64,000 nt of DNA from contig CAKRLG010000001.1 in the NCBI GenBank assembly GCA_934359255.1, positions 62,001 to 126,000 on the forward strand, given 5' to 3'. Position 1 is the first letter of the stretch; each line of letters opens with the position of its first letter. The position numbers were made by a program, and so were the translations under genes. Of the stretch, positions 1,121 to 39,835 are shown piece by piece. Under the pieces are notes generated by a model. The model had not been told where the DNA came from. It saw nothing but the letters and a program-made list of their open reading frames with translations, and searched no databases. Source of the DNA: an uncultured Ruminococcus sp. GTDB lineage: Bacteria > Bacillota > Clostridia > Lachnospirales > Lachnospiraceae.

Positions 1121-1291
1121 GATACCGGATTGTTCCGTACTTCGTACTCTCACAATCCTCAAAAACATTCGCAATCCGCTCATTTTTCTTCGAAAAATGG
1201 CTACTTACTCATGTTTTTGGCGGGTCCCAAGTTCAGAAATCTTCTTGCAAGCAAGCTTGCGTCAGATTTCAGACCTTTTGACCCTGGTATC
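1121..1291 (+). repeat. 171-bp structured repeat, copy A
   Basis: This stretch is nearly identical (5 differences in 171) to 39665-39835. It is closed by GATACC (1121-1126) and GGTATC (1286-1291). Inside are three hairpins: GGATTGT/ACAATCC (1127-1133 / 1152-1158); AAAAACAT/ATGTTTTT (1161-1168 / 1211-1218) enclosing CATTTTTC/GAAAAATG; and TCAGAAATCT/AGATTTCAGA with one mismatch (1233-1242 / 1264-1273). In copy B the closing stem is GATATC/GATATC, so a C-G pair has become T-A. No convincing ORF is contained. It sits between two genes of one operon and would be transcribed from the minus strand. Confidence 0.85.
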
Positions 1292-1301
1292 TTATTCTAT
1301 A

Positions 1302-2222
1302 TTAAATCACAAACTGTTCCAGATATCTCTTGCTGAGGATCAGAGAATTCTCAACCTTTTCCTTGGAATCTTCAAAGGCCTTGTCCTCGACCTCAATGCA
1401 TGTATAGCCGTCATATCCGATATCCGTAAGTGCTGATACATATTTTCCCCAGTCCACATCTCCAAGTCCCGGGAGCTTCGGTGACATGTATTCCAGCGGA
1501 TATGCCATGGTGCCGCAGGATTCCAGCTTGTCTTTGTAGATCTTGATATCTTTGTAGTGGACATGGAAGATCTTATCTTTGAACTCATAAAGCGGGCGGA
1601 TATAATCGATCATCTGCCAGATAAAGTGAGATGGATCGTAGTTGATGCCCAGATGGTCACTGTCCAGGATCCGGAATACTTCTCTCCAGATCGGCGGTGT
1701 TGTCATCAGGTTCTGTCCTCCCGGCCACTGATCCTCTCCGAAAAGCATCGGGCAGTTTTCGATGGCGATCTTCACGTCACATTCCTCAGCCAGTTTTATG
1801 ATCGGCGGCCAGATCTCTTTTACCAGTTCCAGGTTCTCCTGTACATTTTTGGTCTGGTCCCTTCCGATAAATGTGGTGACCATGCCCACACCTAATTTCT
1901 TACTTGCAAGGATCACCTGTTTCAGGTGTTCCACAGCGGCTGCGCTTTTCTCTTTATCTGCCGCCATCACGTTTGGATAATAGGCCAGTGACGAGATCTC
2001 CACTCCTGATTTTTTTGCATATTCCACGATATGCTCTGCATATGTATCATCCTGGTTGACCCGTTCTGCATCGATATGGCTTACACCGGCATATCTTCTT
2101 TCTGCTTTTTCCTGTGGCCAGCATGCCACTTCCACACACTCAAATCCCTGCTCAGACGCAAAATCCATCATCTCTTCATAGGTCCAGCTGTCAAGGATCG
2201 CTGTAACAAACCCTAATTTCAT
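1302..2222 (-). CDS. TIM-barrel sugar phosphate isomerase/epimerase-like protein
   Basis: A 306-residue protein of the xylose-isomerase-like TIM-barrel superfamily (AP endonuclease 2 / IolE / sugar epimerase type). Visible metal-site style motifs are IAIENCPM, NYDPSHFIWQ, FHVHYKD and a final CIEVEDKAFED, giving the Glu-Asp-His-Glu pattern of divalent-metal epimerases. It follows the second TIM-barrel gene (2265-3143) by about 40 bp in the same direction, so the two are probably co-transcribed. It is similar in plan but not close in sequence to that neighbour, which suggests two different steps rather than a recent duplication. The gene context (two Gfo/Idh oxidoreductases, sugar ABC importer) points to sugar or polyol catabolism. 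The exact reaction cannot be read from sequence. Confidence 0.88.
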   Translation of the reverse strand: MKLGFVTAILDSWTYEEMMDFASEQGFECVEVACWPQEKAERRYAGVSHIDAERVNQDDTYAEHIVEYAKKSGVEISSLAYYPNVMAADKEKSAAAVEHLKQVILASKKLGVGMVTTFIGRDQTKNVQENLELVKEIWPPIIKLAEECDVKIAIENCPMLFGEDQWPGGQNLMTTPPIWREVFRILDSDHLGINYDPSHFIWQMIDYIRPLYEFKDKIFHVHYKDIKIYKDKLESCGTMAYPLEYMSPKLPGLGDVDWGKYVSALTDIGYDGYTCIEVEDKAFEDSKEKVENSLILSKRYLEQFVI

Positions 2223-2264
2223 AGGAATGTCCTCCTGTTTCTTCCTGTCTCTGTGATATCTGTA

Positions 2265-3143
2265 TTATTTCTCCCATGGAGTTGGTGTGAACTCTCCGCC
2301 TCTGCACCATTTCAGATAGTTCAGTGCGTGGAGCTGTCCGGTCATCTCCAGTTCTCCGTTGTATACCGGATCATGATATCCCTCGATACAGATATCATCC
2401 TCATATCCGTTGCTTCTCAGGATAGAAATGATATCTCTCCAGTTTGTGTCACCAAATCCAGGCATACGGTGCCATACGAACGGAACTGCTCCGGAGATAC
2501 CGCCGTGTCTTACTGCATCCCAGTCGATGGTCGCATCTTTTCCATGTACATGGACGATCTTTTTGCACCATTTTCTCAGTTCTGTCACAGGGTCGATCAG
2601 CTGTACCATCTGGTGGGTCGGCTCCCATTCCAGACCGAAGTTGTCATTCTTTACTTCCTCGAACATCACTTCCCAGGCTTTCGGGTTGAAACCGATGTTG
2701 CAGGTAGCATGTTCCCAGGTTCCATCCATCAGACAGTTTTCGATGCCCAGTTTCACGCCTTTTTCTTCTGCAAGGTCTGCCAGTTCACGGAACACTTTTC
2801 CAAACTCTTCGTATGCGGATTCTACCGGTTTTCCTTCCCAGGCTCCTGCAAAGGTGCTTACGTGGGTAGCTCCGAATTTTTCAGCAGTGCAGATCACCTT
2901 TTCCAGTGTCTTTCTGTGCTCCGGATACTGAATCGGGTTACAATAATATCCCAGGGTAGTGATCTTGGAATCTGTTCCTGCAAGGATTTTATCTGTGGTC
3001 AGTGCCAGTTTGTCAAGATCTGTTCCTTCCAGTGACATATGGAAATTAAGAGAAAATGTTTCGAATCCTTTTCCCACAAATCCTTTCAGCCATTCTTCTG
3101 CCACGGGTCCCGGAACGCAGGTTCCGATTTTAATCTGTTTCAT
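2265..3143 (-). CDS. TIM-barrel sugar phosphate isomerase/epimerase-like protein
   Basis: A 292-residue xylose-isomerase-like TIM barrel. The start is set at ATG 3143 (MKQIKIGTCVPG) because AGGAGG lies just upstream; the frame extends 20 codons further but those residues do not look like the family. Metal-ligand-like motifs are LGIENCLM, LEWEPTHQMVQ, VHVHGKDA and CIEGYHDP. The gene lies 67 bp after the Gfo/Idh gene at 3211-4275. Enzymes of this fold paired with Gfo/Idh oxidoreductases are known in inositol, keto-inositol and 3-keto-glycoside pathways. The substrate is unknown. Confidence 0.88.
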   Translation of the reverse strand: MKQIKIGTCVPGPVAEEWLKGFVGKGFETFSLNFHMSLEGTDLDKLALTTDKILAGTDSKITTLGYYCNPIQYPEHRKTLEKVICTAEKFGATHVSTFAGAWEGKPVESAYEEFGKVFRELADLAEEKGVKLGIENCLMDGTWEHATCNIGFNPKAWEVMFEEVKNDNFGLEWEPTHQMVQLIDPVTELRKWCKKIVHVHGKDATIDWDAVRHGGISGAVPFVWHRMPGFGDTNWRDIISILRSNGYEDDICIEGYHDPVYNGELEMTGQLHALNYLKWCRGGEFTPTPWEK

Positions 3144-3210
3144 ATTTGTTTCCTCCTGTTCTGTTACATGCACTCTCGGAGAACATGTACAACTGTTTTT
3201 CATTTTTATG

Positions 3211-4275
3211 TTATACCTGATCCTGAAATTCGATCACCTGGTTTGTCTCCGCTGACCGGAAGATCGCTTCCATCAGTTTCATCACGCGCATCACCTGGAA
3301 CAGTTTAATCTCAGGCTCTGCTCCGTCCCGGATCACTGCAACTACATTTCTGTGGAAATCTGCAATATCTCCGGATACTTTTGGTAAGTCCTCTTTCACA
3401 ATGGTATCTTCCCGTCTCGGTGCCATGGTTTTGGTCAGACCGGCTGCTGTCTTAACCGGTACTACCGTCTCTTCCGTCATACCGGTCTTACGGATGATCT
3501 CACCGTTTAACTGCCAGTCCCTGATCACTGCGGTACCGTCTTCTCCCAGTACATACCATCTCGGCAGGGAGATATAATTGTTGGTGCCGACTTCCACCAG
3601 GACTTCCGTTCCGCCTTCAAAAGTCAGGATGGCAGTGAATCCATCGTCCACTTCCTGGTTGGTAACATTGGTAAGTGATGCGTATACGGTCTCGATCTTT
3701 CTGTCACCGTACATATATAAGATCTGGTCCAGCAGATGTACACCCCAGTCCAGAACCATTCCACCACCATGTACTTTTTCTTTTCTCCAGTCACCCGGGA
3801 TTCCTCTTGAACCATGGACACGGCTCTCGATTCGGAAGACATGTCCCAGTTTCTGCTCCTCTACAAGCTTTTTGATGATCAGGAAATCATCATCCCACCG
3901 TCTGTTCTGGTGTACTGTAAGTAATTTTCCCGTCTCTTTGGCTGTATTTTCCATTTCCAGCAGATCTGCGGAAGATAATGTCACCGGTTTTTCCGATATT
4001 ACATTTTTTCCTGCATGCATGGCACGGATGGCGATGGGTTTGTGGCAGTCATTCGGAGTGGCGATCAGAACCACATCGATCTCCGGATCTGCCAGCATGG
4101 CTTCTTCTGTTTCATATACAGAAAAGCCCTTCTCCTTCGCTTCTTCTCTCTTTTCTTCCTTGATGTCATAGATGCCACCGATTACAGCTTCCGGAACATT
4201 GGAAAGGATCTCTGTATGCCATCTGCCCATTCCGCCATATCCGATCAGTCCGTAAACTACTTTGTTTTCCCTCAT
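3211..4275 (-). CDS. Gfo/Idh/MocA-family oxidoreductase
   Basis: A complete 354-residue member of the NAD(P)-dependent Gfo/Idh/MocA family. The N-terminal turn reads GLIGYGGMGRWH, then comes EKPVTLSSADL with the family EKP motif, and later GGGMVLDWGVHLLDQ with the active-site Asp and His. The start ATG follows GGAGG by a normal distance. It differs clearly from the partial family member at 1-1060, so the operon carries two distinct dehydrogenases. It lies directly downstream of the solute-binding protein gene, past a hairpin (4292-4323) that probably lowers read-through into the enzyme genes. It probably oxidises or reduces the imported sugar. Confidence 0.92.
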   Translation of the reverse strand: MRENKVVYGLIGYGGMGRWHTEILSNVPEAVIGGIYDIKEEKREEAKEKGFSVYETEEAMLADPEIDVVLIATPNDCHKPIAIRAMHAGKNVISEKPVTLSSADLLEMENTAKETGKLLTVHQNRRWDDDFLIIKKLVEEQKLGHVFRIESRVHGSRGIPGDWRKEKVHGGGMVLDWGVHLLDQILYMYGDRKIETVYASLTNVTNQEVDDGFTAILTFEGGTEVLVEVGTNNYISLPRWYVLGEDGTAVIRDWQLNGEIIRKTGMTEETVVPVKTAAGLTKTMAPRREDTIVKEDLPKVSGDIADFHRNVVAVIRDGAEPEIKLFQVMRVMKLMEAIFRSAETNQVIEFQDQV

Positions 4276-4291
4276 TTTGAACCTCCATTGT

Positions 4292-4323
4292 AAAAACAGC
4301 GGCTGATGAACACCATCAGCCGC
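4292..4323 (-). terminator. Hairpin with U-run between binding-protein and enzyme genes
   Basis: Read on the minus strand, GCGGCTGATG pairs perfectly with CATCAGCCGC around a 5-base loop and is followed by TGTTTTTA. It lies between the solute-binding protein stop (4332) and the next gene. It looks like a partial terminator or mRNA-stabilising hairpin inside the operon, as often found after binding-protein genes that need high expression. Confidence 0.7.
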
Positions 4324-4331
4324 CGCCTCTA

Positions 4332-6038
4332 TTACTTACTTAATTCTTCGTTGATTTCTTTAAGAATCTGGTCACCGCCCTGACTCTTCCAGTTCTCAAC
4401 AAAAGTATCGAATTCGCTGATATCTGCTTTTCCCATAACGATTTTTGAGAATGTTTCTTCTTCCATTTTCTTCAGATTGGCCCATTTTGTTTCCATGGTT
4501 TCTGTCTGACCGTTATATGCATTGTAAACCGGTACATATTCGTCATTTACAGAAGGAGCATCTCCGACCAGAATGGACACAAGTCTCGGAAGGTTGTTTT
4601 TGGCAATGTCACTGTCCAGATTCCATTTGTCCAGACTGAAGTCATCGTAAGGCTCTTTTTTCAGTTTTGTAACTGCTTCCATATCACTCTTTAACAGTTT
4701 GTGTGTTGAGAAGTCAACATCATCCATGGTGATTTCTCCTGCAAGATATTTGGTCAGAACATCATAAGATACTTCAATTTCATCTGCATTGTCATAGGTG
4801 TTGTACAGAGGATAGAAGTCCGCAGTACCCATTTCTGTGGTAGAAACACCTTCGTCTACCCATTTCTGCTCATTTTTGATCAGGTAATTGACAATCTTAA
4901 ATGCAGCTTCCGGATTCTTGCATGCTTTGCTTGCTACTACATATTGTGTTGTAGGCTCTGCCATATGAGTGTAATAGTTTCCATCCTCAGATAATGGTGT
5001 AAAATATGCCTGCCAGTCTGCCGCACCTGCCAGTGTAGCATCTGCTACGGTATAACCACACCACCATGGTCCAAAGAAGATTCCGACTTTACCGGACAGA
5101 AGAGGTTCTTTACTGTCACTTCTTACAAGCATTTCCGGATCGATCAGTTTATTTGTATACAGTTCTGAGATTTTTTCCAGAGCATCTCTGGTTTCCGGCT
5201 GGATAGAACCATACTCTACAGTTCCGTCCTCACCCTGCAGCCAGTACTGTGGATAAGACTGAAAACTGCTGAACAGCGGATCCAGACCATACTGATTTCC
5301 TCCGATTGCATTCATATGATCGGAATTACTTGGTCCGAGAATACCAATCGTATCATCCTCTCCGTTTCCATCCGGGTCCTGAGTAACAAACGCTTCTGCT
5401 ACTTTTACCAGTTCATCCCATGTTCTCGGAGCCTCCAGTCCGAGTTTGTCCAGCCAGTCCTGACGGATCCACATCTCGTTGATTCCACCTGCTGTTATGG
5501 CCGGAGCCGGAATCGCCATCAGTTCTCCATCTTCATTGGTGATACATTTCTGCAGCTCTTCACCGCCGGATTCCACATAGCTTTTCAGTGCATCTGAAGC
5601 ATAATCATCAAAATATTTATCCAGTGGCTGGATCATATCATATTTCAAAAGTGCTCTGTACTGTGTCGCATTTACGTTCATCAGTTCCGGAACTGTATTA
5701 CTTCCGATACACAGATTCATTTTCTCTTCAAAGTCTGTGGATGATGCAACCCAGTCATATACAACCTCAATATTAAGATCTTCTTTCAGAAAATCTATGT
5801 ATGGATTATCGTCATAAGTCATTCCATCCGGAAGCTTGGCATTTGGATTCAGAGAACCACCAAGATGAACCGTTACGGTTTCCGGATATTTGGACAGCGG
5901 CAGATCTTCTTTTGCTGTTCCTTCTGCCTCACTTACTGCCTCTTTCTGTGTACTCTCTTCTGATTTTCCGCATCCTGCCAGTGAGGTAACGGCCAATGCC
6001 ATTGCACTGGCAAATGCGATCAACTGTTTCTTTTTCAT
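4332..6038 (-). CDS. Sugar ABC transporter solute-binding lipoprotein (YtcQ/LipO type)
   Basis: A 568-residue extracellular binding protein. The N-terminus is a lipoprotein signal: a lysine-rich start, a hydrophobic stretch, then SLAGC with the lipid-modified Cys at residue 23. The rest has the features of family 1 carbohydrate-binding proteins, including WIRQDWLDKLGLEAPRTWDE. The ribosome site AAAGGAGG precedes the ATG. It forms a unit with the two permease genes upstream (6053-6937, 6950-7840). No ATPase gene is present; importers of this LplABC/YtcQP type usually share a common MsmK-like ATPase encoded elsewhere. It captures a saccharide or glycoside outside the cell; the ligand is unknown. 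Confidence 0.93.
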   Translation of the reverse strand: MKKKQLIAFASAMALAVTSLAGCGKSEESTQKEAVSEAEGTAKEDLPLSKYPETVTVHLGGSLNPNAKLPDGMTYDDNPYIDFLKEDLNIEVVYDWVASSTDFEEKMNLCIGSNTVPELMNVNATQYRALLKYDMIQPLDKYFDDYASDALKSYVESGGEELQKCITNEDGELMAIPAPAITAGGINEMWIRQDWLDKLGLEAPRTWDELVKVAEAFVTQDPDGNGEDDTIGILGPSNSDHMNAIGGNQYGLDPLFSSFQSYPQYWLQGEDGTVEYGSIQPETRDALEKISELYTNKLIDPEMLVRSDSKEPLLSGKVGIFFGPWWCGYTVADATLAGAADWQAYFTPLSEDGNYYTHMAEPTTQYVVASKACKNPEAAFKIVNYLIKNEQKWVDEGVSTTEMGTADFYPLYNTYDNADEIEVSYDVLTKYLAGEITMDDVDFSTHKLLKSDMEAVTKLKKEPYDDFSLDKWNLDSDIAKNNLPRLVSILVGDAPSVNDEYVPVYNAYNGQTETMETKWANLKKMEEETFSKIVMGKADISEFDTFVENWKSQGGDQILKEINEELSK

Positions 6039-6052
6039 TCTTTTTCCTCCTT

Positions 6053-6937
6053 TTATCCTTTTACTGATCCCAGTGTGATACCCTCTACAAAGTATCTTTG
6101 CAGGAACGGGTAAACGATCAGTACCGGTATCATAGCTATAAATATTTTTGCAGAATCCAATGAAAGGTTATTTAATTTCATTGCCTGCGCGATCTGATCC
6201 ACGTTCATCGTGGAATAATCCAGGGTTACTACCATCTGCTGGATGTAGGTCTGCAGTGGGTAACTGGTCTGTCTTGTACTTAAAACCATTCCCTGGAAGA
6301 ATTCATTCCAGTACATAACCATGGTGAACAGTGCAACTGTTGCAACCATAGGCTTTGCCAGCGGTACGTAGATAGATATCAGATTTCTCCAAGGTCCGCC
6401 GCCATCGACAAAACATGCTTCTTCCAGTTCTGTTGGAAGATTTTTGAAAAAGTTTACTGCAAGGATTACATTGAATACCTGAAGTCCTGTTCCCAGTACC
6501 AGTCCGAAAATGTTATCCATCAGATTATAATTTTTCATGGTGATATACCACGGAACCGTACCTCCGTTGAATAACATGCAGAATACGAAGATCCACATAA
6601 AGATATCTCTTTTCGGGAACTGTTTTTTCGTTCTGGATAACGGAAATGCCGCCATAAGGATACATACCATACTGATTCCTGTTCCCAGTAAAACCCTTTT
6701 AATAGATACCAGAAAGGAACCAAAGAATGCGGTCTCTCCCATGATCTTCTTATAGGAGAGCAGGTTGAAGCCAACCGGCCAGAGAGCAACCTGTCCCGCA
6801 TTGACTGCTTCCCTGCTGCTCAGGGATACACAGAGAACGTACCATACAGGTACAATACAGATCAAAGTAACTGCAATGAGAATCACTACATTTAAAATAT
6901 CAAAAATCTTTGATCCGAGGCTTTTATTCTCAATCAT
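6053..6937 (-). CDS. Sugar ABC transporter permease (YtcP/LplC type)
   Basis: A 294-residue inner-membrane permease with about six hydrophobic segments. The cytoplasmic EAA loop that contacts the ATPase reads EEACFVDGGGPWRNLISIYVP. The C-terminus ends FVEGITLGSVKG, typical of the CUT1 MalG-like partner. The ATG is preceded by AGGAGG. It lies 12 bp after its partner permease gene and 14 bp before the binding-protein gene, so the three are clearly one transport operon. Confidence 0.93.
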   Translation of the reverse strand: MIENKSLGSKIFDILNVVILIAVTLICIVPVWYVLCVSLSSREAVNAGQVALWPVGFNLLSYKKIMGETAFFGSFLVSIKRVLLGTGISMVCILMAAFPLSRTKKQFPKRDIFMWIFVFCMLFNGGTVPWYITMKNYNLMDNIFGLVLGTGLQVFNVILAVNFFKNLPTELEEACFVDGGGPWRNLISIYVPLAKPMVATVALFTMVMYWNEFFQGMVLSTRQTSYPLQTYIQQMVVTLDYSTMNVDQIAQAMKLNNLSLDSAKIFIAMIPVLIVYPFLQRYFVEGITLGSVKG

Positions 6938-6949
6938 AGTTACAACCTC

Positions 6950-7840
6950 CTAAAACAGTTTATAACCGGTAAATTTATCTGCCAGCCAGTAACCAAGCGT
7001 AATCAACACAAGACTGATCACAGATTTGAACAATCCAACAGCTGTTGCCAGTGAATACTGGAGATTCTGCAGACCGGCTCTGTATACCCACGTGTCAATA
7101 ATATCACCTGTTGAGTAAACCAGCGGGTTATACAGGTTATAAATCTGGTCGAATCCTGCATTCAGGATATTTCCAAGAGACAAGATAGCCAGAAGTGCTA
7201 CTGTTGTTTTGATACCCGGTAAAGTTACATGCCAGATTCTTTTGAATCGTCCGCAGCCGTCTACTGCCGCAGCTTCGTACAATGATCCATCCACGCCCAG
7301 GATCGCCGCAAGATAAACAACTGTGTTATAACCGAATCCTTTCCAGATATCCGTACCGATCACCAGAGGCTGGAAAAGCTTTGCTTCGCCAAAGAAGTTG
7401 ACTGCATCGCCTCCAAAGAATCCTATGATCTGATTCACCGGTCCTGTATAACCGAAAATATTCAGCACGATCTTCGCAAGAATAACCCATGAAAGAAAAT
7501 ACGGTAAATATACGATTGTCTGGATCGGACGTTTCATTTTTTTCACTGCCAGTTCATTTAATAACAAAGCAAAGACCAGCGGGATAATAATATTTCCGAT
7601 AATCTTGCCAACGGCAATGACAACTGTGTTACGTAAAACCTGTGCAATGTCACTCATCTGAAACATATACTCAAAATTAGCCAGGCCAACAAATTTTGAA
7701 TGGAGAATGCCCTGTCCCGGATTGTAATCCTGAAAAGCCATAACAATTCCGAACATTGGAACAATGCTGAAAAAGAACAGCCACAGTAATGCAGGGATCA
7801 GCATGATGTAATAGTGTTTCACAAATCTTTTGATGTACAT
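6950..7840 (-). CDS. Sugar ABC transporter permease (LplB/YteP type)
   Basis: A 296-residue permease of the CUT1 MalF-like class. It starts MYIKRFVKHYYIMLIPALLW and carries the EAA loop YEAAAVDGCGRFKRIWHVTL. About six membrane spans are visible. GGGAGG lies before the ATG. It is the first gene of the transporter group; the two-component genes upstream end in their own terminator (7937-7972), so a promoter is expected in the gap 7841-7940, but none with a good -35 box is evident. Confidence 0.93.
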   Translation of the reverse strand: MYIKRFVKHYYIMLIPALLWLFFFSIVPMFGIVMAFQDYNPGQGILHSKFVGLANFEYMFQMSDIAQVLRNTVVIAVGKIIGNIIIPLVFALLLNELAVKKMKRPIQTIVYLPYFLSWVILAKIVLNIFGYTGPVNQIIGFFGGDAVNFFGEAKLFQPLVIGTDIWKGFGYNTVVYLAAILGVDGSLYEAAAVDGCGRFKRIWHVTLPGIKTTVALLAILSLGNILNAGFDQIYNLYNPLVYSTGDIIDTWVYRAGLQNLQYSLATAVGLFKSVISLVLITLGYWLADKFTGYKLF

Positions 7841-7936
7841 GAGTAAACCTCCCTTCCTTTATGGATAGTTTATCCTGTTATCATATTTTCCACTAGACGA
7901 TATTGTTTCAGATTCCACAGGGGTTTTTTTGATTTC

Positions 7937-7972
7937 AAAAAAAATGTTCGAATTAAATCGAACATTTTTTTA
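7937..7972 (-). terminator. Intrinsic terminator overlapping the response-regulator stop
   Basis: TGTTCGA (7945-7951) pairs with TCGAACA (7958-7964), flanked by A- and T-runs on both sides, so it could work in both directions. The stop codon of the response regulator (7953-7955) lies in the loop, so the last codons of the gene form part of the terminator. Confidence 0.85.
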
Positions 7973-8963
7973 ACCTGCTTGCATATTCTGTTGGCGTACA
8001 TCCGTATTCCTTTGAAAATACCTTTGTGAAATAATAAAAATTGTCATATCCCAGATCCGATGCGATCTGGGTGATATTTTCTGTTCCTTTTTCCATCTTC
8101 CGGGCAGCCGCATGCATTTTTCTGCTGATCACATAGTTATGAAAGGTATCACCTGTTATCTCCTTAAATCTCGTGCTGAAATAACTTCTGCTCATTCCGA
8201 TCTGTGCTGCTGCCTCTTCTGACTTCAGATTTTCTTCTATATGCTCGTCTGTATACAGGATCACTCTTGCAAACATATAAATATCCTTTGTTTTATCCGT
8301 CTGCAGACACGTCTGATACAGATTTTCCTTCCAGTTCTTTACCCATTCCAGCATCTCGTCCACAGAAGATAAGGATGGAAATTCAAGTTCTTCTCCTGTG
8401 AGTTTCTGGAAGCTGTGGAAACTTTTTATAAAAACCCTTTCAGCAGTCCGCAGCTCCACGCCCCGGGTTATCTCGCACAGTCTGTTAAACTCACAGTCAT
8501 TAAAGATCCATCTGGTATTCGTCCACGCTTTTTCCAGCCTTTTCTGGAGTCCGGAATCCTCCTTCCGGGGTTCTTTTTTCGACTGATTTTCCTTATACTT
8601 TCTTTCTACAAGTTCCAGAATCTGGTCACACTCATCCCCATCAAAGCTTATTTTGGATATGTAATCCAGGGCTCCCAGTCTCAGGGCACTCTGTGCATAA
8701 CGGAAATCTTCATACATAGAAAAGACTACGAATTTCACCTCCGGATATTCTTTTTTACACATTTTCATCAGTTCAATTCCATCAATCTCCGGCATGTCTA
8801 TATCCGTGAATACAATATCCACTTCATTATCCTTCAGAAATTCCAGTGCTTTACGGCCATTCTGGACATCCCCCACAACTTCAAATCCATATTTGCCCCA
8901 ATCCATTATAGAAATCAAACCTTTTCTTGCCAGTTTATCATCATCTACAACCAATACCTTCAT
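7953..8963 (-). CDS. Response regulator, receiver plus AraC-type DNA-binding domain (YesN-like)
   Basis: A 336-residue regulator. Residues 1-120 form a CheY-like receiver: VLVVDDDKLARKG carries the acidic pocket, DIVFTDIDMPEIDG the phosphorylated Asp, and VVFSMYEDFRYAQ the switch region. The last 100 residues form two AraC helix-turn-helix units (AAAQIGMSRSYFSTRFKEIT and IASDLGYDNFYYFTKVFSKE). It starts inside the stop of the kinase gene (ATGA overlap), so the two are translationally coupled. It most likely activates the adjacent sugar ABC operon in response to the extracellular sugar. Confidence 0.95.
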   Translation of the reverse strand: MKVLVVDDDKLARKGLISIMDWGKYGFEVVGDVQNGRKALEFLKDNEVDIVFTDIDMPEIDGIELMKMCKKEYPEVKFVVFSMYEDFRYAQSALRLGALDYISKISFDGDECDQILELVERKYKENQSKKEPRKEDSGLQKRLEKAWTNTRWIFNDCEFNRLCEITRGVELRTAERVFIKSFHSFQKLTGEELEFPSLSSVDEMLEWVKNWKENLYQTCLQTDKTKDIYMFARVILYTDEHIEENLKSEEAAAQIGMSRSYFSTRFKEITGDTFHNYVISRKMHAAARKMEKGTENITQIASDLGYDNFYYFTKVFSKEYGCTPTEYASRLKKCSI

Positions 8964-10753: not shown

Positions 10754-10834
10754 ATCAGATTCTCCCACTCCTGTTCTATCGCCTTCCATATCGCCGTAAG
10801 GCTGCAGAACAGTTAACCTTTTTATCCTGTTTAA

Positions 10835-10863
10835 AGAATATATAACTTTTTTCTGAAAGTCAA
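10835..10863 (-). promoter_or_regulatory. Promoter for the YesMN-like two-component operon
   Basis: On the minus strand TTGACT (10858-10863) and TATTCT (10835-10840) are separated by 17 bases, a good sigma-70-type arrangement about 80 bases before the kinase start. Confidence 0.65.
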
Positions 10864-10906
10864 CTGTTTACAACCTATCATTCTTACCGAAAAAACTAAG
10901 AACAGC

Positions 10907-10978: not shown

Positions 10979-11007
10979 CATTTTCAATTAAGATTATGAC
11001 AATTTAT

Positions 11008-11034: not shown

Positions 11035-11069
11035 GATAATGGCTACTGAATAGTTACCAATTTATTTAC

Positions 11070-22832: not shown

Positions 22833-22884
22833 GTTAAATCTGTCATGACTTTTCTGTATCGTTACAGTTACAGACTCTCTTATA

Positions 22885-22970
22885 TAACGTTCCTACGTTG
22901 GCATTATCCAAATCAGGTATATGGGTCGAAGTTCTCAACTTCCTCTCAGCCTATCACATAAGCTCCCCGG
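22885..22970 (-). ncRNA. TPP riboswitch aptamer
   Basis: On the minus strand the conserved THI-box blocks occur in order: GGCTGAGAGG, then CTTCGACCC, ACCTGATTTGGATAATGCCA and ACGTAGG. These are the pyrimidine- and diphosphate-binding cores of the TPP aptamer. It sits in the leader of thiSFGH and should switch the operon off when thiamin pyrophosphate is plentiful. Confidence 0.97.
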
Positions 22971-22991
22971 TTCTATTCATTTGACAACCCA

Positions 22992-29846: not shown

Positions 29847-29883
29847 TCCATTTTTCTGTTGAAAAAGATCCAAATTTGATTCT

Positions 29884-31089: not shown

Positions 31090-31156
31090 TATCTTTCTCC
31101 TCCTTTTTCCTTATATTTATTCCTTGAATTTTTCCGGATAGTTACAAAAAATCACA

Positions 31157-31198
31157 TTAAAAAAACTCTTATTGCATATCAAATACTGCAATAAAAGT
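31157..31198 (-). terminator. Leader terminator before the AI-2E transporter gene
   Basis: On the minus strand TTATTGCA pairs with TGCAATAA around a 10-base loop and is followed by GAGTTTTTTT. It lies between the leader ORF MFGNLRL and the TTG start, about 70 bases before the gene, so it can act as an attenuator. Confidence 0.75.
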
Positions 31199-31245
31199 CC
31201 CCCCATTTTCCTGAAGTACCGGATGGCTCCACCGTACTGACGACA

Positions 31246-31269
31246 CTACAAACGCAGATTTCCAAACAT
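31246..31269 (-). CDS. Seven-residue leader peptide ORF (MFGNLRL)
   Basis: ATG TTT GGA AAT CTG CGT TTG TAG with TAAGGAG at an ideal distance and a promoter 25 bases upstream. Between its stop and the leader terminator lies a stem (GTACGG / CCGGTAC) with GTGGAGCC. The layout (promoter, tiny ORF, structured region, terminator, transporter) is that of a ribosome-mediated attenuator. Confidence 0.5.
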   Translation of the reverse strand: MFGNLRL

Positions 31270-31294
31270 AGGTTACTCCTTATAATTAGGTTTG

Positions 31295-31324
31295 ATTGTA
31301 CAATAATCTCTGTCTCCTTGTCAA
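31295..31324 (-). promoter_or_regulatory. Promoter of the AI-2E transporter transcript
   Basis: On the minus strand TTGACA (31319-31324), 18 bases, TACAAT (31295-31300). Confidence 0.75.
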
Positions 31325-31359
31325 TATTCATTTTTTTGAATATATACCAAACAGACGGA

Positions 31360-31388
31360 TGGTCATCCACCTTATAATGAGTTATACT
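31360..31388 (+). promoter_or_regulatory. Promoter of the second MATE gene
   Basis: TGGTCA (31360-31365), 17 bases, TATACT (31383-31388), about 55 bases before the ATG. It diverges from the AI-2E promoter only some 36 bases away, so one regulator could act on both. Confidence 0.55.
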
Positions 31389-31444
31389 ATGAGTATGAAG
31401 AGAACCGCTTCCAAAATTTTACATCAAAAAGGAGTATAGCACTT

Positions 31445-32836: not shown

Positions 32837-32838
32837 AA

Positions 32839-33006
32839 AATCACATTGAAAATATCATATCTGCGAAATGCAAGAGTAGGCGTTGTCTGTGTTTTATCTT
32901 GTATTGCTCCATGTTTTGTGGTTGTTGCAATTTTTGCAACAACCACTTTTTCATCCAATTCACCTGTTTCAAATATTTTGGCAAGATGACGGCTGATACC
33001 CGACAT
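32839..33006 (-). pseudogene. Fragment of a RhuM-family protein
   Basis: On the minus strand about 56 residues read GISRHLAKIFETGELDEKVV, then AKIATTTKHGAIQDKTQ. This matches the N-terminal part of RhuM-family proteins, where a helix-turn-helix is followed by F-x-x-GELDE and a QHGAxxGKTQ segment. No start with a ribosome site and no C-terminal half remain; the frame then runs into the MATE gene. It is a remnant. The inverted repeat at 32919-32946 is coding sequence of this fragment (codons for VVVAKIATTT), although it could now end MATE transcription because TTTTT follows. Confidence 0.65.
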
Positions 33007-33033
33007 ATCCAGTTCTCTCTCACATACTCTTAT

Positions 33034-33501
33034 TTAATCAGATTCAAATTCTCCCACAAACCACACTTCAAATTGTTCTGTATCTACTCCCATACACACA
33101 TTAACATTCGGTATTTCATTTTCATGGATTGCCATCCAGGTATCCATTACCAGTGCACCTGCTACGATTCCTTCTGTTACCACCTCTACATATTTTTCTT
33201 CCGTCTGAAACAGTTCCGGTTTCATCAGGAACGTGATGGTACAGGCATCATGGAGCATCAGTCCGGCATCCATGCTTCCCCCTCTGTAATTCTCAAACAA
33301 TGCATACAGCATATTCCCGGTTTTTCCACTGTCTCTCATCTTAAGAATATTTTCCCGGTGAAGAAGTGCCTTCTCTGTCACATCCAGTCCCAACATATTA
33401 ATTTTCACCCCTGACTGAAAGACGATTATTTCTTCGATTTTTTCCTTCACTTCCGGATACATCCAGAACCAGTTACCGCCACCTTCTTCGAGTGATCCGC
33501 C
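33034..33501 (-). pseudogene. C-terminal half of an inosine-uridine-type nucleoside hydrolase
   Basis: The frame gives GGSLEEGGGNW, then KINMLGLDVTEKALLHRENI and MLHDACTITFLMKPELF, which fit the C-terminal half of nucleoside hydrolases (the G-L-D-V-T and HD motifs). The N-terminal half with the calcium-binding D-x-D-x-x-x-DD motif is absent, a stop lies at 33505 in frame, and no ribosome site precedes the first ATG (33462). An intact family member lies just upstream (33631-34560), but the sequences are not close, so this is probably not a recent partial duplication. Confidence 0.75.
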
Positions 33502-33568
33502 AGTTTATTTCTGACGGTATCCTCCTGCGCAGCAATCACCAGTACCGCATTCTTAACTATGAAAAATT

Positions 33569-33626
33569 AGAAAAAGCTACAGAAAAGACCTGATTTTCAC
33601 AGGAACGTATTTCTGCAGCTTTTTCT
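33569..33626 (-). terminator. Terminator of the nucleoside hydrolase gene
   Basis: AGAAAAAGCT-x-CAGAAA pairs with TTTCTG-x-AGCTTTTTCT with one mismatch. On the minus strand a T-rich stretch follows. It starts a few bases after the stop at 33631. Confidence 0.8.
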
Positions 33627-33630
33627 TGCA

Positions 33631-34560
33631 TTATTTTCCTAATTTTGCAAACAAATCCTCAAACAGATTATCTCTCTTAACATGATACACATATTTGATA
33701 AAATGTCGATTCTGGTCGACTGCATACCGGGCATCATATTCCGGAATCGGACTGTGAATCAGGCAGTCTTCCATGAAGTCTCCGTCCAGCAGCCAGGCTA
33801 CTGCTGTCACATCCCAGATTGCTCTTGTCCAGGCTTCTCCACCGCCGCAGGCTTTAGCTTCTTTTATTGTCACATCCACAAGATAATCACAGAGTTTATT
33901 TTTCCCCTTTAGATGATATTCCAGTTCCGGGCCGCTTGTTGAAAATGCAGATACCACTCCCATACACGGTAACTGCACGACCGGCACACCACAGCCGAAA
34001 ATGATTCTTGCCCCTGCAACATCCTGATCCAGATTAAATTCTCTGTTATCCGGCCAGTGAATGGCATTTCCCCCGAGCCAGACCACCACGATCCGGTCAA
34101 TGATCTCCGGGTTCATCCGGATCGCTGATGCAACATTGGTAATTGCAGCAATTGCTACTACATACAAAGGATGCTCCTGTGAATATTCCATCGCTCTTTG
34201 TGCCAGATCCCTGGCCGCATCCGATTCCACCGGCTGTTCTTCCGATGGCATATATTCTTTTGATCCTTTGTATACAACTTTTTTCAGATCATCCCGCCCC
34301 AGAAGTGTCAGTATATTCATGATCTCCTGATAGCTTTTCTCCATCCCATCTGCCGGGCTGTCAGACTTTTCGTTGAAAAATGGAGCTGCATAAATCGCCT
34401 TCAGATCCAGTTTTTCATCTGATCGAATCAGGTAAGATAGTGCATACTGATCATCAATTTCATTAAATGTATCCGTATCAATGACTACATCCACTCTTCC
34501 CTGTGGCTTTCTCAGTCGACGGATCATTTTTTCATGATCATTTCTGTCTGTTTTTTCCAT
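33631..34560 (-). CDS. Nucleoside hydrolase (inosine-uridine type)
   Basis: A 309-residue enzyme that splits the N-glycosidic bond of ribonucleosides to base and ribose. The start is ATG 34560 (MEKTDRNDHEKMIRRL) behind GAGGAG; the longer frame would overlap the HAD gene and lacks support. Residues near 25-38, VDVVIDTDTFNEIDDQYAL, hold the D-x-D-x-x-x-x-DD metal site in a slightly lengthened form. VAIAAITNVASAIR and WLGGNAIHWPDNREFNLDQD follow as in the family; AWTRAIWDVTAVAWL replaces the usual HDP segment, so specificity may differ from IunH. It follows the HAD phosphatase gene in an apparent operon. Confidence 0.88.
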   Translation of the reverse strand: MEKTDRNDHEKMIRRLRKPQGRVDVVIDTDTFNEIDDQYALSYLIRSDEKLDLKAIYAAPFFNEKSDSPADGMEKSYQEIMNILTLLGRDDLKKVVYKGSKEYMPSEEQPVESDAARDLAQRAMEYSQEHPLYVVAIAAITNVASAIRMNPEIIDRIVVVWLGGNAIHWPDNREFNLDQDVAGARIIFGCGVPVVQLPCMGVVSAFSTSGPELEYHLKGKNKLCDYLVDVTIKEAKACGGGEAWTRAIWDVTAVAWLLDGDFMEDCLIHSPIPEYDARYAVDQNRHFIKYVYHVKRDNLFEDLFAKLGK

Positions 34561-34615
34561 TTTGTTCTCCTCGTCAGAAAAATATTTTTGTATGCGGCAA
34601 ATGTAGTTTTGTTTT

Positions 34616-35428
34616 TTAAAGCCTAGCCTTAGCCAGCCATCTAGCCACACCATCCTCATCATTGCCTCCAATAATTTCTGTGGCCGCCTGTTTTAATTCA
34701 TCAGATGCATTCGCTACTGCATAGGCCTCATCTGATATTTGAAACATGTCGATATCATTTGCAGCATCTCCAAAGGATATCACTTTTTTACATCCTAACT
34801 TTTCTTTTAACTGTAAAACAGCATTTGATTTGGATGCCTCCCTAGGCATAATTTCCAGCCATTGCTCTTTCGTATAAATATCCTGTTGGAAAACAATATG
34901 ATACCTATCTTTATACTTTTCAAAAAAAGGTTCCAGTTTCTCTTTTTCATCAATACATGTTACATAAAACATATTTCCTCGTTTTAAGTCTTCCGTATTT
35001 TGAACTTCTCTCCATCGTCGATCGCCTTTTCTTGTATTTAAAAAATCTCGCATTCCTTTCTTGCACTTCATCGGAATGAATGAAAAATATTCTACAGCAT
35101 CGATGTAAGAATATACTATTGGATATATTTCATTGTCAAATAGTTCTTCTAAAACCTCATGGATATCATTACGAAAATAATTTGAAATCAGAACCTCTTC
35201 TGTCACATTGTCAATAACAAAGGCTCCATTGTATACAATCAAAGGAATCTTTGCATGTAATCCCTTTGTAACCTTCTTAGCCGTCACATAGGATCTTGCA
35301 GTTGCATAGGAAAACAAAACTCCTTTTTTCGTAAGCTGGTTGATCACCTCGCATGTATACCCGGATACTGTTTCATCGCTTCTGAGCAATGTTCCGTCTA
35401 AATCAGATACATATAGACATTTCTCCAT
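34616..35428 (-). CDS. Cof-type HAD-IIB hydrolase
   Basis: A 270-residue phosphatase. The N-terminus LYVSDLDGTLLRSDETV holds the DxDGT nucleophile motif; later VIVYNGAFVIDNVT, then CKKVISFGDAANDIDMFQIS with the GDxxND metal motif, so all four HAD motifs are present with a C2B cap. Such enzymes dephosphorylate sugar phosphates, FMN or pyridoxal phosphate. It is probably the first gene of the pair with the nucleoside hydrolase, 55 bp downstream. A TATAAT is seen at 35493-35498 on the minus strand, but without a good -35 box. Confidence 0.93.
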   Translation of the reverse strand: MEKCLYVSDLDGTLLRSDETVSGYTCEVINQLTKKGVLFSYATARSYVTAKKVTKGLHAKIPLIVYNGAFVIDNVTEEVLISNYFRNDIHEVLEELFDNEIYPIVYSYIDAVEYFSFIPMKCKKGMRDFLNTRKGDRRWREVQNTEDLKRGNMFYVTCIDEKEKLEPFFEKYKDRYHIVFQQDIYTKEQWLEIMPREASKSNAVLQLKEKLGCKKVISFGDAANDIDMFQISDEAYAVANASDELKQAATEIIGGNDEDGVARWLAKARL

Positions 35429-35601
35429 ATAAGCTCCTTTCTATTGCTGGCAGTACTAAATTTCCGAATTTTATTATTTTTCTAATCCTTTGATTATATC
35501 ATTAAAATTGTACTATATTCTGTGGTTTTTGCAACAGCCACTTTCTCAAGTTATCGCTGCATTCACTAAGGTCTCGTGTTAGTTCATTGCCCACGTAAAT
35601 C

Positions 35602-35629
35602 AAAAAAGGGATCGGACGCATCCAATCCC
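35602..35629 (-). terminator. Terminator of the metG-tatD operon
   Basis: On the minus strand GGGATTGGA pairs with TCCGATCCC (one G-T pair) around TGCG and is followed by TTTTTT. Confidence 0.85.
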
Positions 35630-35716
35630 CTCAAGTACGCTCCGTAGAAACGCACCGCTATTCACACCGATAGTATACAAGACCCTGAGAAAAATGCAAG
35701 TTCTTTATATAGCAAT

Positions 35717-36487
35717 TTATTTCACTTTTGAAAAGACCCGGAAACTGTTCTTCCAGGTGACTTCTTCTACCTCTTCCTGTGACACGCCCTTAATCTCGGC
35801 GATTTTCTCCACCACATACGGAATGTTCAGCGAAGAGTTTCGTTTTCCCCGGTTGGGAACCGGTGCCAGGTAGGGGCTGTCGGTTTCCAGTAACAGAGAT
35901 TCCAGTGGTGCATACTCTACGACTTCCACCAGTTTTCTTGCATTCTTAAAGGTCAGGACACCGCCGATACCGAGGGAAAGCCCCATATCCAGGTATTCCC
36001 TTGCCATCTCTTTTCCGTATGAAAAGCAGTGTACCACACCGCCGATATCCCCGGCATGAAGCCGTTTCATGGTATCCAGCGTATCTTTTGCCGCATCACG
36101 GCTGTGGATGATAAACGGGAGTTTCTCTTCCCGTGCTACCTCCAGCTGCCGCTCGAACCAGCAGATCTGTTTTGCGTGGTTTTCTTTATCCCAGTAATAG
36201 TCCAGACCAATCTCCCCTACGGCCACCGTCTTTTCCATCCGGCAGATCTGATGCATCCGTTCGATTTTTTCTTCGTCCAGTGCTCCCACATCATCGGGAT
36301 GGACACCTACAGCTCCGTAGATGTACGGGTACCGTTCCATCAGATCCAGAGTACGGTTCCAGCCTTCTACTTCCGCGCATACATTGATCACTCTGCCGAT
36401 GCCCTGCGCAGGCAGGGCATCCAGCAGTTCTTTTCGGTCTTCGTCAAAAGCCTCATCATCATAATGTGCATGACTTTCAAATATCAT
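35717..36487 (-). CDS. tatD: TatD-family metal-dependent hydrolase
   Basis: A 256-residue TIM-barrel nuclease of the TatD/YcfH family. It starts MIFESHAHYDDEAFDEDRKE, with the H-x-H metal site, then VAVGEIGLDYYWDK, PFIIHSRDA, GVVHCFSYG and LLLETDSPYLAP, all family ligands. It lies 15 bp after metG on the same strand. The metG-tatD pair is common in Firmicutes. TatD proteins act as Mg-dependent 3'-5' exonucleases. Confidence 0.96.
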   Translation of the reverse strand: MIFESHAHYDDEAFDEDRKELLDALPAQGIGRVINVCAEVEGWNRTLDLMERYPYIYGAVGVHPDDVGALDEEKIERMHQICRMEKTVAVGEIGLDYYWDKENHAKQICWFERQLEVAREEKLPFIIHSRDAAKDTLDTMKRLHAGDIGGVVHCFSYGKEMAREYLDMGLSLGIGGVLTFKNARKLVEVVEYAPLESLLLETDSPYLAPVPNRGKRNSSLNIPYVVEKIAEIKGVSQEEVEEVTWKNSFRVFSKVK

Positions 36488-36502
36488 GTCGGTTCACACT
36501 TT

Positions 36503-38455
36503 CTAGCAGATCTCTGCGCCTGCAGGCATCTTCTTTTCCGGAACCATCAGAGAGAGGTTGCCGTCCGCATCTTCTGCACATAACAACATACCTTCAGAAA
36601 GTACGCCTGCCAGTTTTGCAGGTTTCAGGTTCACCAGAACCATGACTTTCTTTCCTACCATCTCTTCTGCGGTATAGTGTCCCTTGATACCGGATACGAT
36701 CTGTTTTACCTGGCTGCCGATCTTCACCTGAGAACACAGCAGTTTTCTTGATTTTTTCACTTCTTCGCAGGCGATGATCTCACCAACCTGGAACTGCATT
36801 TTTCCGAAATCATCGAAGGTAATCTCTTCTTTTGCATCGATATCAATCACCGGCTCTTCCGGTACTTCCGGTTTTGCCTGTGCAGCTTTCATGGCTTCTA
36901 CTTTTTCCAGAATTTCTTTCAGATCCAGACGCTGGAACAGGATCTCCGGTTTGTCTGTTACTTTATTTCCTGACGGATACAGACCGAACTGATCCAGTTC
37001 TTCGTAAGATCTCTTTTCTCCGTTTAACTGAGCCAGGATCTTTTCTGTGGTTTCCGGCATGAAGGATTCCAGCAGAGAAGCACCGATGGTGATACTTTCT
37101 ACCAGGTTATACAGAACTTCTGCCAGACGGTCTTTCTTCGCTTCGTCTTTTGCCAGTGCCCACGGCATGGTCTCATCAATGTATTTGTTGCAGCGTTTGA
37201 ACAGGTTGAAGATCTCTGTGATAGAATCCGCCACACGCAGGTCTTCCATCTTGGCAGCTACTTTTGCCCTGGTTCCCGTTACAACTGCTTTCAAATCAGC
37301 GTCTACATCTTCTTCCACACCTGTTTTTGTTACCACACCGCCAAAATATTTGTTGGACATGGAGATGGTACGGTTTACCAGGTTACCCAGGGTGTTGGCC
37401 AGATCAGAGTTCAGTCTCTCTACCATCAGTTCCCAGGTGATCACACCGTCGTTTTCAAACGGCATCTCATGCAGAACGAAATAACGGACAGCATCTACAC
37501 CGAAGAAGTCTACCAGATCATCGGCATAGATCACATTTCCTTTGGACTTACTCATCTTGCCATCGCCCTGTAACAGCCACGGATGACCAAATACCTGTTT
37601 TGGCAGAGGCAGATCCAGAGCCATCAGGAAGATCGGCCAGTAAATCGTATGGAAACGGATGATATCTTTACCGATCAGATGCAGGTCTGCCGGCCAGTTT
37701 TTGTTGAACAGTTCGGAGCTGTTGCCGTCGCAGTCATAACCGATACCAGTGATGTAGTTGGTCAGCGCATCCAGCCATACATACGTTACGTGTTTCGGGT
37801 CAAAATCTACCGGAATACCCCAGCTGAAGGAAGTACGGGATACACACAGATCCTGCAGTCCCGGAAGCAGGAAATTGTTCATCATCTCGTTCTTTCTGGA
37901 TACCGGCTGGATGAACTTCGGATGTTCGTTGATATATTTGATCAGGCGCGGAGCGTATTTGCTCATCTTGAAGAAATATGCTTCTTCTTTCGCCGGTGTA
38001 CACGGACGTCCGCAGTCCGGACATTTTCCGTCTACCAGCTGAGATTCTGTAAAGAAGGATTCACACGGGGTACAGTACATTCCTTCGTAGTGTCCTTTGT
38101 AGATATCTCCCTGATCGTACAGTTTTTTGAAAATCTTCTGTACCTGTTTTTCATGATCTGCATCTGTGGTACGGATGAACTTGTCATAGGATGTATTCAT
38201 CAGATCCCAGATTCTCTTGATCTCTGTGGATACGTTGTCTACGTATTCCTTCGGGGTGATGCCTGCTTCTTCGGCTTTCAGCTCGATCTTCTGACCATGC
38301 TCGTCAGTACCGGTCTGGAAGAATACATCGTATCCCTGCTTTCTTTTGAAGCGGGCGATACTGTCTGCCAGTACGATCTCATAGGTATTTCCGATGTGGG
38401 GTTTACCGGATGTGTAGGCAATCGCCGTTGTCATATAAAATTTTTCTTTTGCCAT
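36503..38455 (-). CDS. metG: Methionyl-tRNA synthetase
   Basis: A 650-residue class I synthetase that charges tRNA-Met and the initiator tRNA. The HIGH-like motif is SGKPHIGNTYE; the zinc knuckle is YCTPCESFF and KCPDCGRPC; the KMSKS loop is GDGKMSKSKGNVIY. The C-terminus from about residue 545 is the tRNA-binding domain (FDDFGKMQFQVGEIIACEEV). AAGGAGG lies before the ATG. The transcript starts about 390 bases upstream and passes through a T-box, so expression rises when tRNA-Met is uncharged. Confidence 0.98.
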   Translation of the reverse strand: MAKEKFYMTTAIAYTSGKPHIGNTYEIVLADSIARFKRKQGYDVFFQTGTDEHGQKIELKAEEAGITPKEYVDNVSTEIKRIWDLMNTSYDKFIRTTDADHEKQVQKIFKKLYDQGDIYKGHYEGMYCTPCESFFTESQLVDGKCPDCGRPCTPAKEEAYFFKMSKYAPRLIKYINEHPKFIQPVSRKNEMMNNFLLPGLQDLCVSRTSFSWGIPVDFDPKHVTYVWLDALTNYITGIGYDCDGNSSELFNKNWPADLHLIGKDIIRFHTIYWPIFLMALDLPLPKQVFGHPWLLQGDGKMSKSKGNVIYADDLVDFFGVDAVRYFVLHEMPFENDGVITWELMVERLNSDLANTLGNLVNRTISMSNKYFGGVVTKTGVEEDVDADLKAVVTGTRAKVAAKMEDLRVADSITEIFNLFKRCNKYIDETMPWALAKDEAKKDRLAEVLYNLVESITIGASLLESFMPETTEKILAQLNGEKRSYEELDQFGLYPSGNKVTDKPEILFQRLDLKEILEKVEAMKAAQAKPEVPEEPVIDIDAKEEITFDDFGKMQFQVGEIIACEEVKKSRKLLCSQVKIGSQVKQIVSGIKGHYTAEEMVGKKVMVLVNLKPAKLAGVLSEGMLLCAEDADGNLSLMVPEKKMPAGAEIC

Positions 38456-38486
38456 TATTTATTTCCTCCTTGCTCACGCATACTAT

Positions 38487-38515
38487 GAGAAACACGCTCC
38501 GCGAGTTTCTCATGT
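38487..38515. repeat. Hairpin in the metG leader between T-box terminator and gene
   Basis: ATGAGAAAC pairs with GTTTCTCAT around ACGCTCCGCGA. Together with the 35-bp dispersed repeat next to it, it forms an insertion of about 85 bases between the T-box terminator and the metG ribosome site. Confidence 0.6.
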
Positions 38516-38535
38516 TACCGCGGCAGTCGCCAAGG

Positions 38536-38570
38536 TCTCGTGCAAGCACGGACTTTGGCTCGTTGCTCGC
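38536..38570. repeat. 35-bp dispersed repeat, copy 2
   Basis: Matches 16018-16052 in 34 of 35 bases and in the same orientation. It lies directly after the U-run of the T-box terminator in the metG leader. A weaker relative may be at about 35572-35596 (AAGGTCTCGTG). Confidence 0.75.
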
Positions 38571-38572
38571 GT

Positions 38573-38840
38573 AAAAAAACCGCCTTCTTACTGTTTGTAA
38601 GAAGACGGATATGATACCGTGTTACCACTTCTCTTCGTCTCTTTCTCACGAAAGAAACCTCGCCAAGTACTGCTATACTCTGCCGCTATAACAGGCGGAT
38701 CCTGTCGCAGCCTAACCTTCCGGCTCGGTGCGCCTCTCAGAAGCCATCTTCCATCCACCTTATCACATCCCTCTCAGCCTCCGGGAATTCTCTGTAATGA
38801 CAGTCGTGCATGTACTCTCTTCGTCACGGTGTTTTTGTTT
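38573..38840 (-). ncRNA. T-box leader with terminator, upstream of metG
   Basis: On the minus strand the T-box core AAGTGGTAACACGGT (38616-38630) is followed by the terminator hairpin CCGTCTTCTTAC/GTAAGAAGGCGG and TTTTTTT (38573-38608). Upstream are stem I elements (AGAGAATT, GGTGGATGG). An ATG at 38745-38747, in GAAGATGGCTTC just before CTGAG, is a candidate methionine specifier codon, which fits the downstream gene. Uncharged tRNA-Met should stabilise the antiterminator. Confidence 0.9.
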
Positions 38841-38853
38841 ATGACTATAGTTT

Positions 38854-38882
38854 ATCGTAGCATATACGTTTGTATTTGTAAA
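38854..38882 (-). promoter_or_regulatory. Promoter of the metG-tatD operon
   Basis: On the minus strand TTTACA (38877-38882), 17 bases, TACGAT (38854-38859), just before the T-box leader. Confidence 0.7.
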
Positions 38883-38893
38883 GTCTGTAAATT

Positions 38894-39610
38894 TTACTTC
38901 TTCAGATATTTTTTCACTTCTTCTGCTGAGCGGTTCAGCACCAGTTCTTCCGGAAAATCCAGCTTTGTCAGAAGTTCTCTTGCCATGTCAAATTCCCCGA
39001 TCAGTGCATCAAAGTGTGCATCGCTGTCCATAACGACCGGTACCTGGTATTTTTTGCAGTAGTTTAACATGATCGTATCGTTCTCGATCGCGTTGGAGCG
39101 GCTACAGTCCGGATCCATGGAGTGGTTGTTCAGTTCCAGGATCTTTCCGTATTCTTTTGCTCCCTGTACCAGTGCTTCGTAGTCCACCTCATATCTTCCG
39201 TCATCCGGATGACCGATGATATTGACGCATGGATTCTTCATGACGTTCAGATAGGCTTCTGTATTCTCCTGGCGGCTTCCCGGTTCCATGCATGGAGTGT
39301 GCAGACTTGCAATGATGATATCCAGTTTTTCCATCGTCTTCTGTGGGAGATCCACGGTTCCCTTCGCATCCAGAATATTAACCTCGGATCCCAGTACCAG
39401 TTCGATACCATACAGTTCTCTCGGTACAATCCGCAGATTGTCAAAATAAAACAGATGACAGGTTCCCGGCATCTTCGGTGCATGTTCCGTGATTCCCAAC
39501 AGCTCCAACCTTTTATCGGCTGCTGCCTTTGCCATCTCTCTTAAGGTACAGTAGGCATGTCCGCTGACAATAGTATGCGTGTGTAAGTCCAGGACAGAAT
39601 TGTATTTCAT
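38894..39610 (-). CDS. PHP-domain phosphoesterase (YcdX-like)
   Basis: A 238-residue PHP-superfamily hydrolase. The start is ATG 39610 (MKYNSVLDLHTHTIVSGHAY) with GAGGAAT upstream; earlier codons in frame belong to unrelated leader DNA. Metal ligands are visible in LDLHTHT, GITEHAP, IIASLHTP, IIGHPDDGRYEVD and VVMDSDAHFDA, the nine-histidine/acid pattern of PHP phosphatases. These proteins cleave phosphoesters with three metals; the natural substrate is unknown. A 171-bp repeat lies just upstream. Confidence 0.92.
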   Translation of the reverse strand: MKYNSVLDLHTHTIVSGHAYCTLREMAKAAADKRLELLGITEHAPKMPGTCHLFYFDNLRIVPRELYGIELVLGSEVNILDAKGTVDLPQKTMEKLDIIIASLHTPCMEPGSRQENTEAYLNVMKNPCVNIIGHPDDGRYEVDYEALVQGAKEYGKILELNNHSMDPDCSRSNAIENDTIMLNYCKKYQVPVVMDSDAHFDALIGEFDMARELLTKLDFPEELVLNRSAEEVKKYLKK

Positions 39611-39664
39611 AATGATAATTCCTCTTTTCTCTGTTTGTTTCCACAGGATTATAATGATGTTAAG

Positions 39665-39835
39665 ATATCGGATTGTTCCGTACTTCGTACTCTCACAATC
39701 CTCAAAAACATTCGCAATCCGCTCATTTTTCTTCAAAAAATGGCTACTTACTCATGTTTTTGGCGGGCCCCAAGTTCAGAAATCTTCCTGCAAGCAAGCT
39801 TGCGTCAGATTTCAGACCTTTTGACCCTGATATCT
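39665..39835 (+). repeat. 171-bp structured repeat, copy B
   Basis: Same length and 166 of 171 bases as 1121-1291, in the same orientation. The ends are GATATC and GATATC, which pair, while copy A has GATACC and GGTATC: two of the five differences are compensatory. Another change (GAAAAATG to AAAAAATG) costs one pair in hairpin 2. Located between yfhO and the PHP gene. Confidence 0.85.

Follow-up and report, generated by a model that had tools for sequence, protein, structure and literature searches.

Among described repeat systems, bcr1-bcr18 of the Bacillus cereus group are by analogy the closest parallel to the repeat analysed here. They are dispersed repeats of 100-400 bp, with bcr1-bcr3 called MITE-like (PMC3446304, PMC6542083); about half of the copies are reported in mRNAs or other transcripts (PMC3446304), and their mobility has been tied to a TTTAT motif (PMC6542083). 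On the RNA side, Weinberg et al. (2010, PMC2864571) listed Clostridiales-1, from Clostridiales and the human gut, as a probable RNA that is probably not a cis-regulator. The word "mobile" is absent from the main text of that paper, supplements apart, and, judged by titles and the beginnings of abstracts, nothing among the papers listed in literature searches on this family (Rfam RF01699, type "Gene; sRNA") calls it a mobile element. Here we report that a repeat found twice in a Ruminococcus contig is a short mobile element from gut Clostridia with Clostridiales-1 inside it.

The window, i.e., the whole 64,000-nucleotide stretch of DNA that was analysed, contains two 171-bp copies with exactly five differences, both on the minus strand and each flanked on either side by minus-strand reading frames (Table 1). 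Direct comparison thus bore out the number of differences and the shared orientation given in the original prediction, whose interval for copy 1 was also right, whereas that for copy 2 (39665-39835) was one base too high. Two of the five differences, at repeat positions 5 (C/T) and 167 (G/A), do fall on partners of the closing stem, as had been proposed, and the three hairpins described inside the repeat appear in the fold as three arms of a closed domain, with copy 1 having a fourth hairpin beyond the 171 bp. The family, which had gone unrecognised, is RF01699, and both copies match the whole model above its cut-off. A partial relic that was missing from the earlier list lies just past the end of a minus-strand frame; a terminator-like hairpin and its T run come next. 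The window also holds a TPP riboswitch (RF00059) at 22872-22979 on the minus strand (69 bits).

Table 1. Positions of the repeat copies and their parts in the window
Feature	Position	Strand	Basis
Copy 1, whole mobile element, 204 bp	1088..1291	-	empty site in G004; direct repeats on both sides
Copy 1, 171-bp repeat	1121..1291	-	direct comparison with copy 2
RF01699 Clostridiales-1 match, copy 1, model 1-166 of 166	1120..1292	-	136 bits, cut-off 48
Left terminal inverted repeat GATACCAGGGTCAAAAGG	1274..1291	-	14/18 identical to right end
Right terminal inverted repeat GATGTTGGGGTCAAAAGG	1088..1105	+	comparison with left end
Target duplication TAGAATAA of copy 1, one side	1292..1299		direct repeats
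Target duplication TAGAATAA of copy 1, other side	1080..1087		direct repeats
Closing stem P1, 5' strand GATACC	1286..1291	-	fold and covariation counts
Closing stem P1, 3' strand GGTATC	1121..1126	-	fold and covariation counts
Arm P2, variable long hairpin	1222..1284	-	fold; outside covariation count
Arm P3, conserved GA-rich internal loops	1161..1219	-	fold and covariation counts
Arm P4, conserved purine internal loop	1127..1159	-	fold and covariation counts
Tail hairpin, right terminal repeat and its neighbour; outside Rfam model	1094..1117	-	fold, self match
Copy 2, 171 bp, 5 differences from copy 1, without tail hairpin	39664..39834	-	
RF01699 match, copy 2, model 1-166	39663..39835		138.6 bits, cut-off 48
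Possible decayed duplication of copy 2, ATGATAA	39835..39841		6/7 against partner ATTATAA
Possible decayed duplication of copy 2, ATTATAA	39649..39655		partner of ATGATAA
Partial relic (P4 with 3' strand of closing stem)	61214..61264	-	90.2% over 51 bp, element positions 125-175

The mobility of this repeat, which the original prediction had not proposed, is well supported. Searching window positions 700-1720 in five genomes of the genus revealed a locus in G004 (C1:1680913-1681719) that consists of the copy 1 flanks without the element. Since TAGAATAA occurs once at this precise empty site and twice in the window, the inserted unit is the 204-bp element of Table 1, bounded by an 8-bp target duplication and by imperfect 18-bp inverted repeats. 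Its right end lies 32 bases past the Rfam match, so that the DNA unit is longer than the sRNA gene filed as RF01699 and ends in a terminal inverted repeat. The element is likewise absent from the copy 1 site in G001 and from a second G004 locus, with unrelated sequence in its place. Copy 2, which is without the tail hairpin and shows a duplication of only 6/7, has a counterpart at the same place in G001; in G004 it is absent, though with no clean empty site.

To these two copies we added 85 from the RF01699 matches listed in relatives, for a total of 87 copies with flanks. Under a fixed rule that allowed the right end no more than 5 mismatches in 17 positions, 38 copies passed and the other 49 were set aside before duplications were counted. 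Exact 7-8 bp direct repeats flank 22 of the 38 (19 of 7 bp and 3 of 8 bp, with neither in 16), whereas swapping right flanks among copies 2000 times left 1.07 such cases on average and never more than 6; a looser rule, picking among several right ends, gave a few more. The 22 copies come from the window and seven genomes. The duplicated target is AT-rich and typically ATnnnAT: in the 19 duplications of 7 bp, positions 1, 2, 6 and 7 are A, T, A and T in 18/19 each. This varying 7-8 bp target sets the element apart from the bcr repeats with their TTTAT motif, a distinction drawn from the published description. A REP-type origin, with a RAYT (Y1 transposase) as the mobilising enzyme, would also give a dispersed intergenic repeat with hairpins, but REP elements are expected to insert without target duplication, and Y1 enzymes are not known to produce terminal inverted repeats and duplications of 7-8 bp; because the insertions here duplicate 7-8 bp of target, such an origin fits badly and we regard it as very improbable.

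The terminal inverted repeats have the end form GATnnnnGGGTCAAAAG, and GAnnnnnGnGTCAAAAG in Butyrivibrio. On plasmid pNP243 of Butyrivibrio fibrisolvens D1 we found three 188-bp copies with exact duplications (AAAATAT, ATATATAT and ATTTTAT), the first of which matches the whole RF01699 model at 110.6 bits, as well as a 37-bp element that consists of little but two ends and is flanked, by eye, by ATTAATAT. In the plasmid collection as a whole, the element occurs in one of 72,556 records. Scanning the collected loci for two matching ends bordered by a duplication returned 27 elements of 68 to 234 bp. Short elements of 68, 129 and 37 bp have duplications, which indicates that insertion does not require the core; as the ends seem sufficient, the transposase probably sees only DNA. 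The phage collection yielded 12 records, all of them faecal metagenome sequences; in one record ATTATAT flanks a full-length copy at either end (by eye), but the five records inspected, this one among them, are marked UNVERIFIED and unannotated, and we draw no conclusion on phages. The 2 and 6 stretches that matched in viral contigs were rejected, the 80 bases listed for them being unlike the element by eye.

Other partial and compound forms were also seen. Repeats of about 74 bp in G001 and G004 (L071, L073, L074 and L077) contain only P4, the 3' strand of the closing stem and the tail; their right end is that of the element. At positions 2550-2626 of L081 (G001:C5), the left end and its P2 arm together make up a near-palindrome of 77 bp. 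With the T run that comes after it, this resembles a re-used terminator. Head-to-tail RF01699 copies occur at L135 (G008:C26), L142 (G033:C12) and L143 (G058:C1), with closing-stem letters common, or nearly so, at the joints.

A search of related genomes, as the original prediction had suggested, did recover the repeat: under strict filters, RF01699 matches with E 0.001 or better occur in 26/61 genomes and matches over the cut-off in 20/61, with 0 to 35 matches per genome and none in 14 control genomes. The closest of the genomes searched shares 31% of the window's sampled words. Copies are dispersed, numerous and in both orientations. Could this instead be a host small-RNA gene family that has multiplied within genomes, with its mobile features secondary? 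The Rfam type, the covarying structure with its conserved loops and the 2010 assessment as probably RNA and probably not cis-regulatory (PMC2864571) all favour that reading; we nonetheless hold it to be improbable in view of the empty site and duplications, the patchy spread over relatives and the presence of copies in both orientations. Because RF01699 rides on a jumping element, the family has the appearance of mobile-DNA cargo and not of a gene fixed in its hosts.

The original prediction had pointed to a transposase gene matching the ends, and none was found in the genomes, loci and plasmid examined. Searches by end patterns for an autonomous partner in 15 genomes (for G032 and G012, among the matches listed) returned only short elements, as did stretches around isolated ends and pair scans requiring a duplication, in which no transposase was seen. 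End pairs 1.27 kb apart in G008 and 1.58 kb apart in G004 were discarded, each enclosing apparently ordinary host genes by eye, and two isolated left ends in G004 had no adjoining transposase frame, also by eye. Matches to PF00872 are present in 5/10 genomes, with none in G032 or G013, both of which have exact duplications; PF01609 is matched in 7/7 genomes and PF12762 in 1/7, below cut-off. Within about 1.5 kb on each side (or up to the contig end) of the transposase loci fetched for these three families, no two matching ends with a duplication lay 0.7-3.5 kb from each other. Two ISL3 copies on pNP243 were rejected as partners, their ends being different. In G019, contigs C15 and C28 (L171 and L176) carry a repeat with ends GATGCCGGGGTCAAAA and an unassembled interior. 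As ATAACAT lies on the outer side of each, the two ends may belong to one insertion, and this repeat, whose ends resemble those of the element, is a candidate autonomous partner. Searches for its ends (in 200 genomes, then 7, then genome contigs) returned the contigs of G019 itself and, in the last of the three, two other places, one of which is a short element.

The element is thus like a MITE in being short (204 bp, with no room for a transposase), dispersed, and equipped with terminal inverted repeats and target duplications; it differs in its RNA fold, which has several covarying arms and conserved loops, and the searches above turned up no autonomous partner. Folding the 204-bp unit of copy 1 gives -86.4 kcal/mol, where shuffled sequences average -46.1 (z -9.9, with 0 of 200 shuffles as good); its opposite strand reaches -73.5 (z -6.5). 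Folding is better than chance on either strand, and better on the modelled one (minus in the window) than on the other. Covariation was counted in 49 of the 87 copies, those left after removal of near-duplicates and of lengths outside 145-190, in an alignment made from sequence only. Pairs were taken from the Rfam structure, leaving out P2 and those outer pairs in P1 and P3a whose alignment or pairing is poor (e.g., P1 positions 6-168, which pair in only 16/44). Four rows with other ends, misplaced by the aligner, were omitted from the P1 count; their ends pair by eye.

In all five helix segments, both the number of paired cells and the number of pairs changed on both sides exceed the best of 500 shuffles, a comparison that does not amount to a probability, as related rows are not independent. 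For P1, 179/180 cells are paired (best shuffle 158) with 30 changed on both sides (best shuffle 13), and the inner segments behave alike: 238/244 (215) with 31 (13) for P3a, 189/196 (154) with 48 (23) for P3b, 331/335 (295) with 44 (19) for P4a, and 186/189 (150) with 57 (29) for P4b. When each genome contributes a single row (17 rows, the window being treated as one genome), all five segments still beat every shuffle on both measures. The many copies therefore do carry an excess of compensatory changes, and the selection on structure originally proposed is supported. Beyond the paired letters, 11 of 17 positions in the internal loops of P3 and P4 keep a single purine in 45 or more of the 48-49 rows. 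G-U pairs outnumber A-C pairs 33 to 6 over all rows and 7 to 3 with one row per genome, where the excess is not significant and the strand argument is accordingly suggestive only.

These features bear on whether the structure matters as RNA or as DNA. Were this a plain MITE, its hairpins would matter only as DNA (as a cruciform or in transposase binding) and the RNA fold would be incidental, in keeping with the inverted repeats and duplications, with the folding of both strands and with the core-less short elements that still have duplications. We judge this unlikely. Conservation extends to unpaired letters in the loops, and the core survives together with other ends, as in seven compared copies of a G034 subfamily (L240-L246) that remain recognisable in the core but differ in their ends (TTACTATAAAAGCCC and GGAAGTTTA) and in the tail hairpin, with no duplication seen. 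In the fold, the left terminal repeat pairs with the internal GGTATC, and both change together, while the right terminal repeat pairs with its own neighbour; given these separate partners, the covarying closing stem is not simply the two terminal repeats pairing. The G-U excess also argues for the RNA in the full set of rows, but not when each genome is limited to a single row. Selection at the RNA level is likely, and we conclude that the repeat is probably a MITE that is moved by a transposase in trans and carries an RNA whose fold is selected.

On this mobile-cargo reading, a DDE-type transposase would act in trans on the ends with a staggered cut of 7-8 bp, and the core would be retained through selection on its fold, acting in RNA read from the strand modelled by Rfam (minus in the window). 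A promoter scan near copy 1 found none. Cis-regulation of neighbours is unsupported: 34 of the 87 copies are sense to both neighbouring genes and 24 antisense to both, by a crude gene calling that got the gene downstream of copy 2 wrong, and such near-even orientation gives no sign of a cis role and argues against a dedicated cis-regulator. As a tentative guess, the RNA may serve the element itself, as a compact insert that neighbouring transcripts tolerate, with terminal repeats kept in local hairpins and perhaps a protein at the GA-rich loops. It is rather unlikely, in our estimation, that Clostridiales-1 is instead a selfish RNA that spreads on the ends of different transposons and needs its fold for its own proliferation, e.g., by binding a mobilising enzyme or a host factor; if true, this would account for the retention of the core and its GA-rich loops despite the replacement of ends, tails and closing-stem letters between lineages.

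With Clostridiales-1 as cargo of a mobile element, an RNA family described in 2010 without a function would be re-read, and its many copies and patchy spread would be accounted for. Caution would be needed in annotation, as not every RF01699 copy should be entered as a host sRNA gene. The finding also raises the question of why a MITE would retain a covarying RNA fold that is dispensable for insertion.
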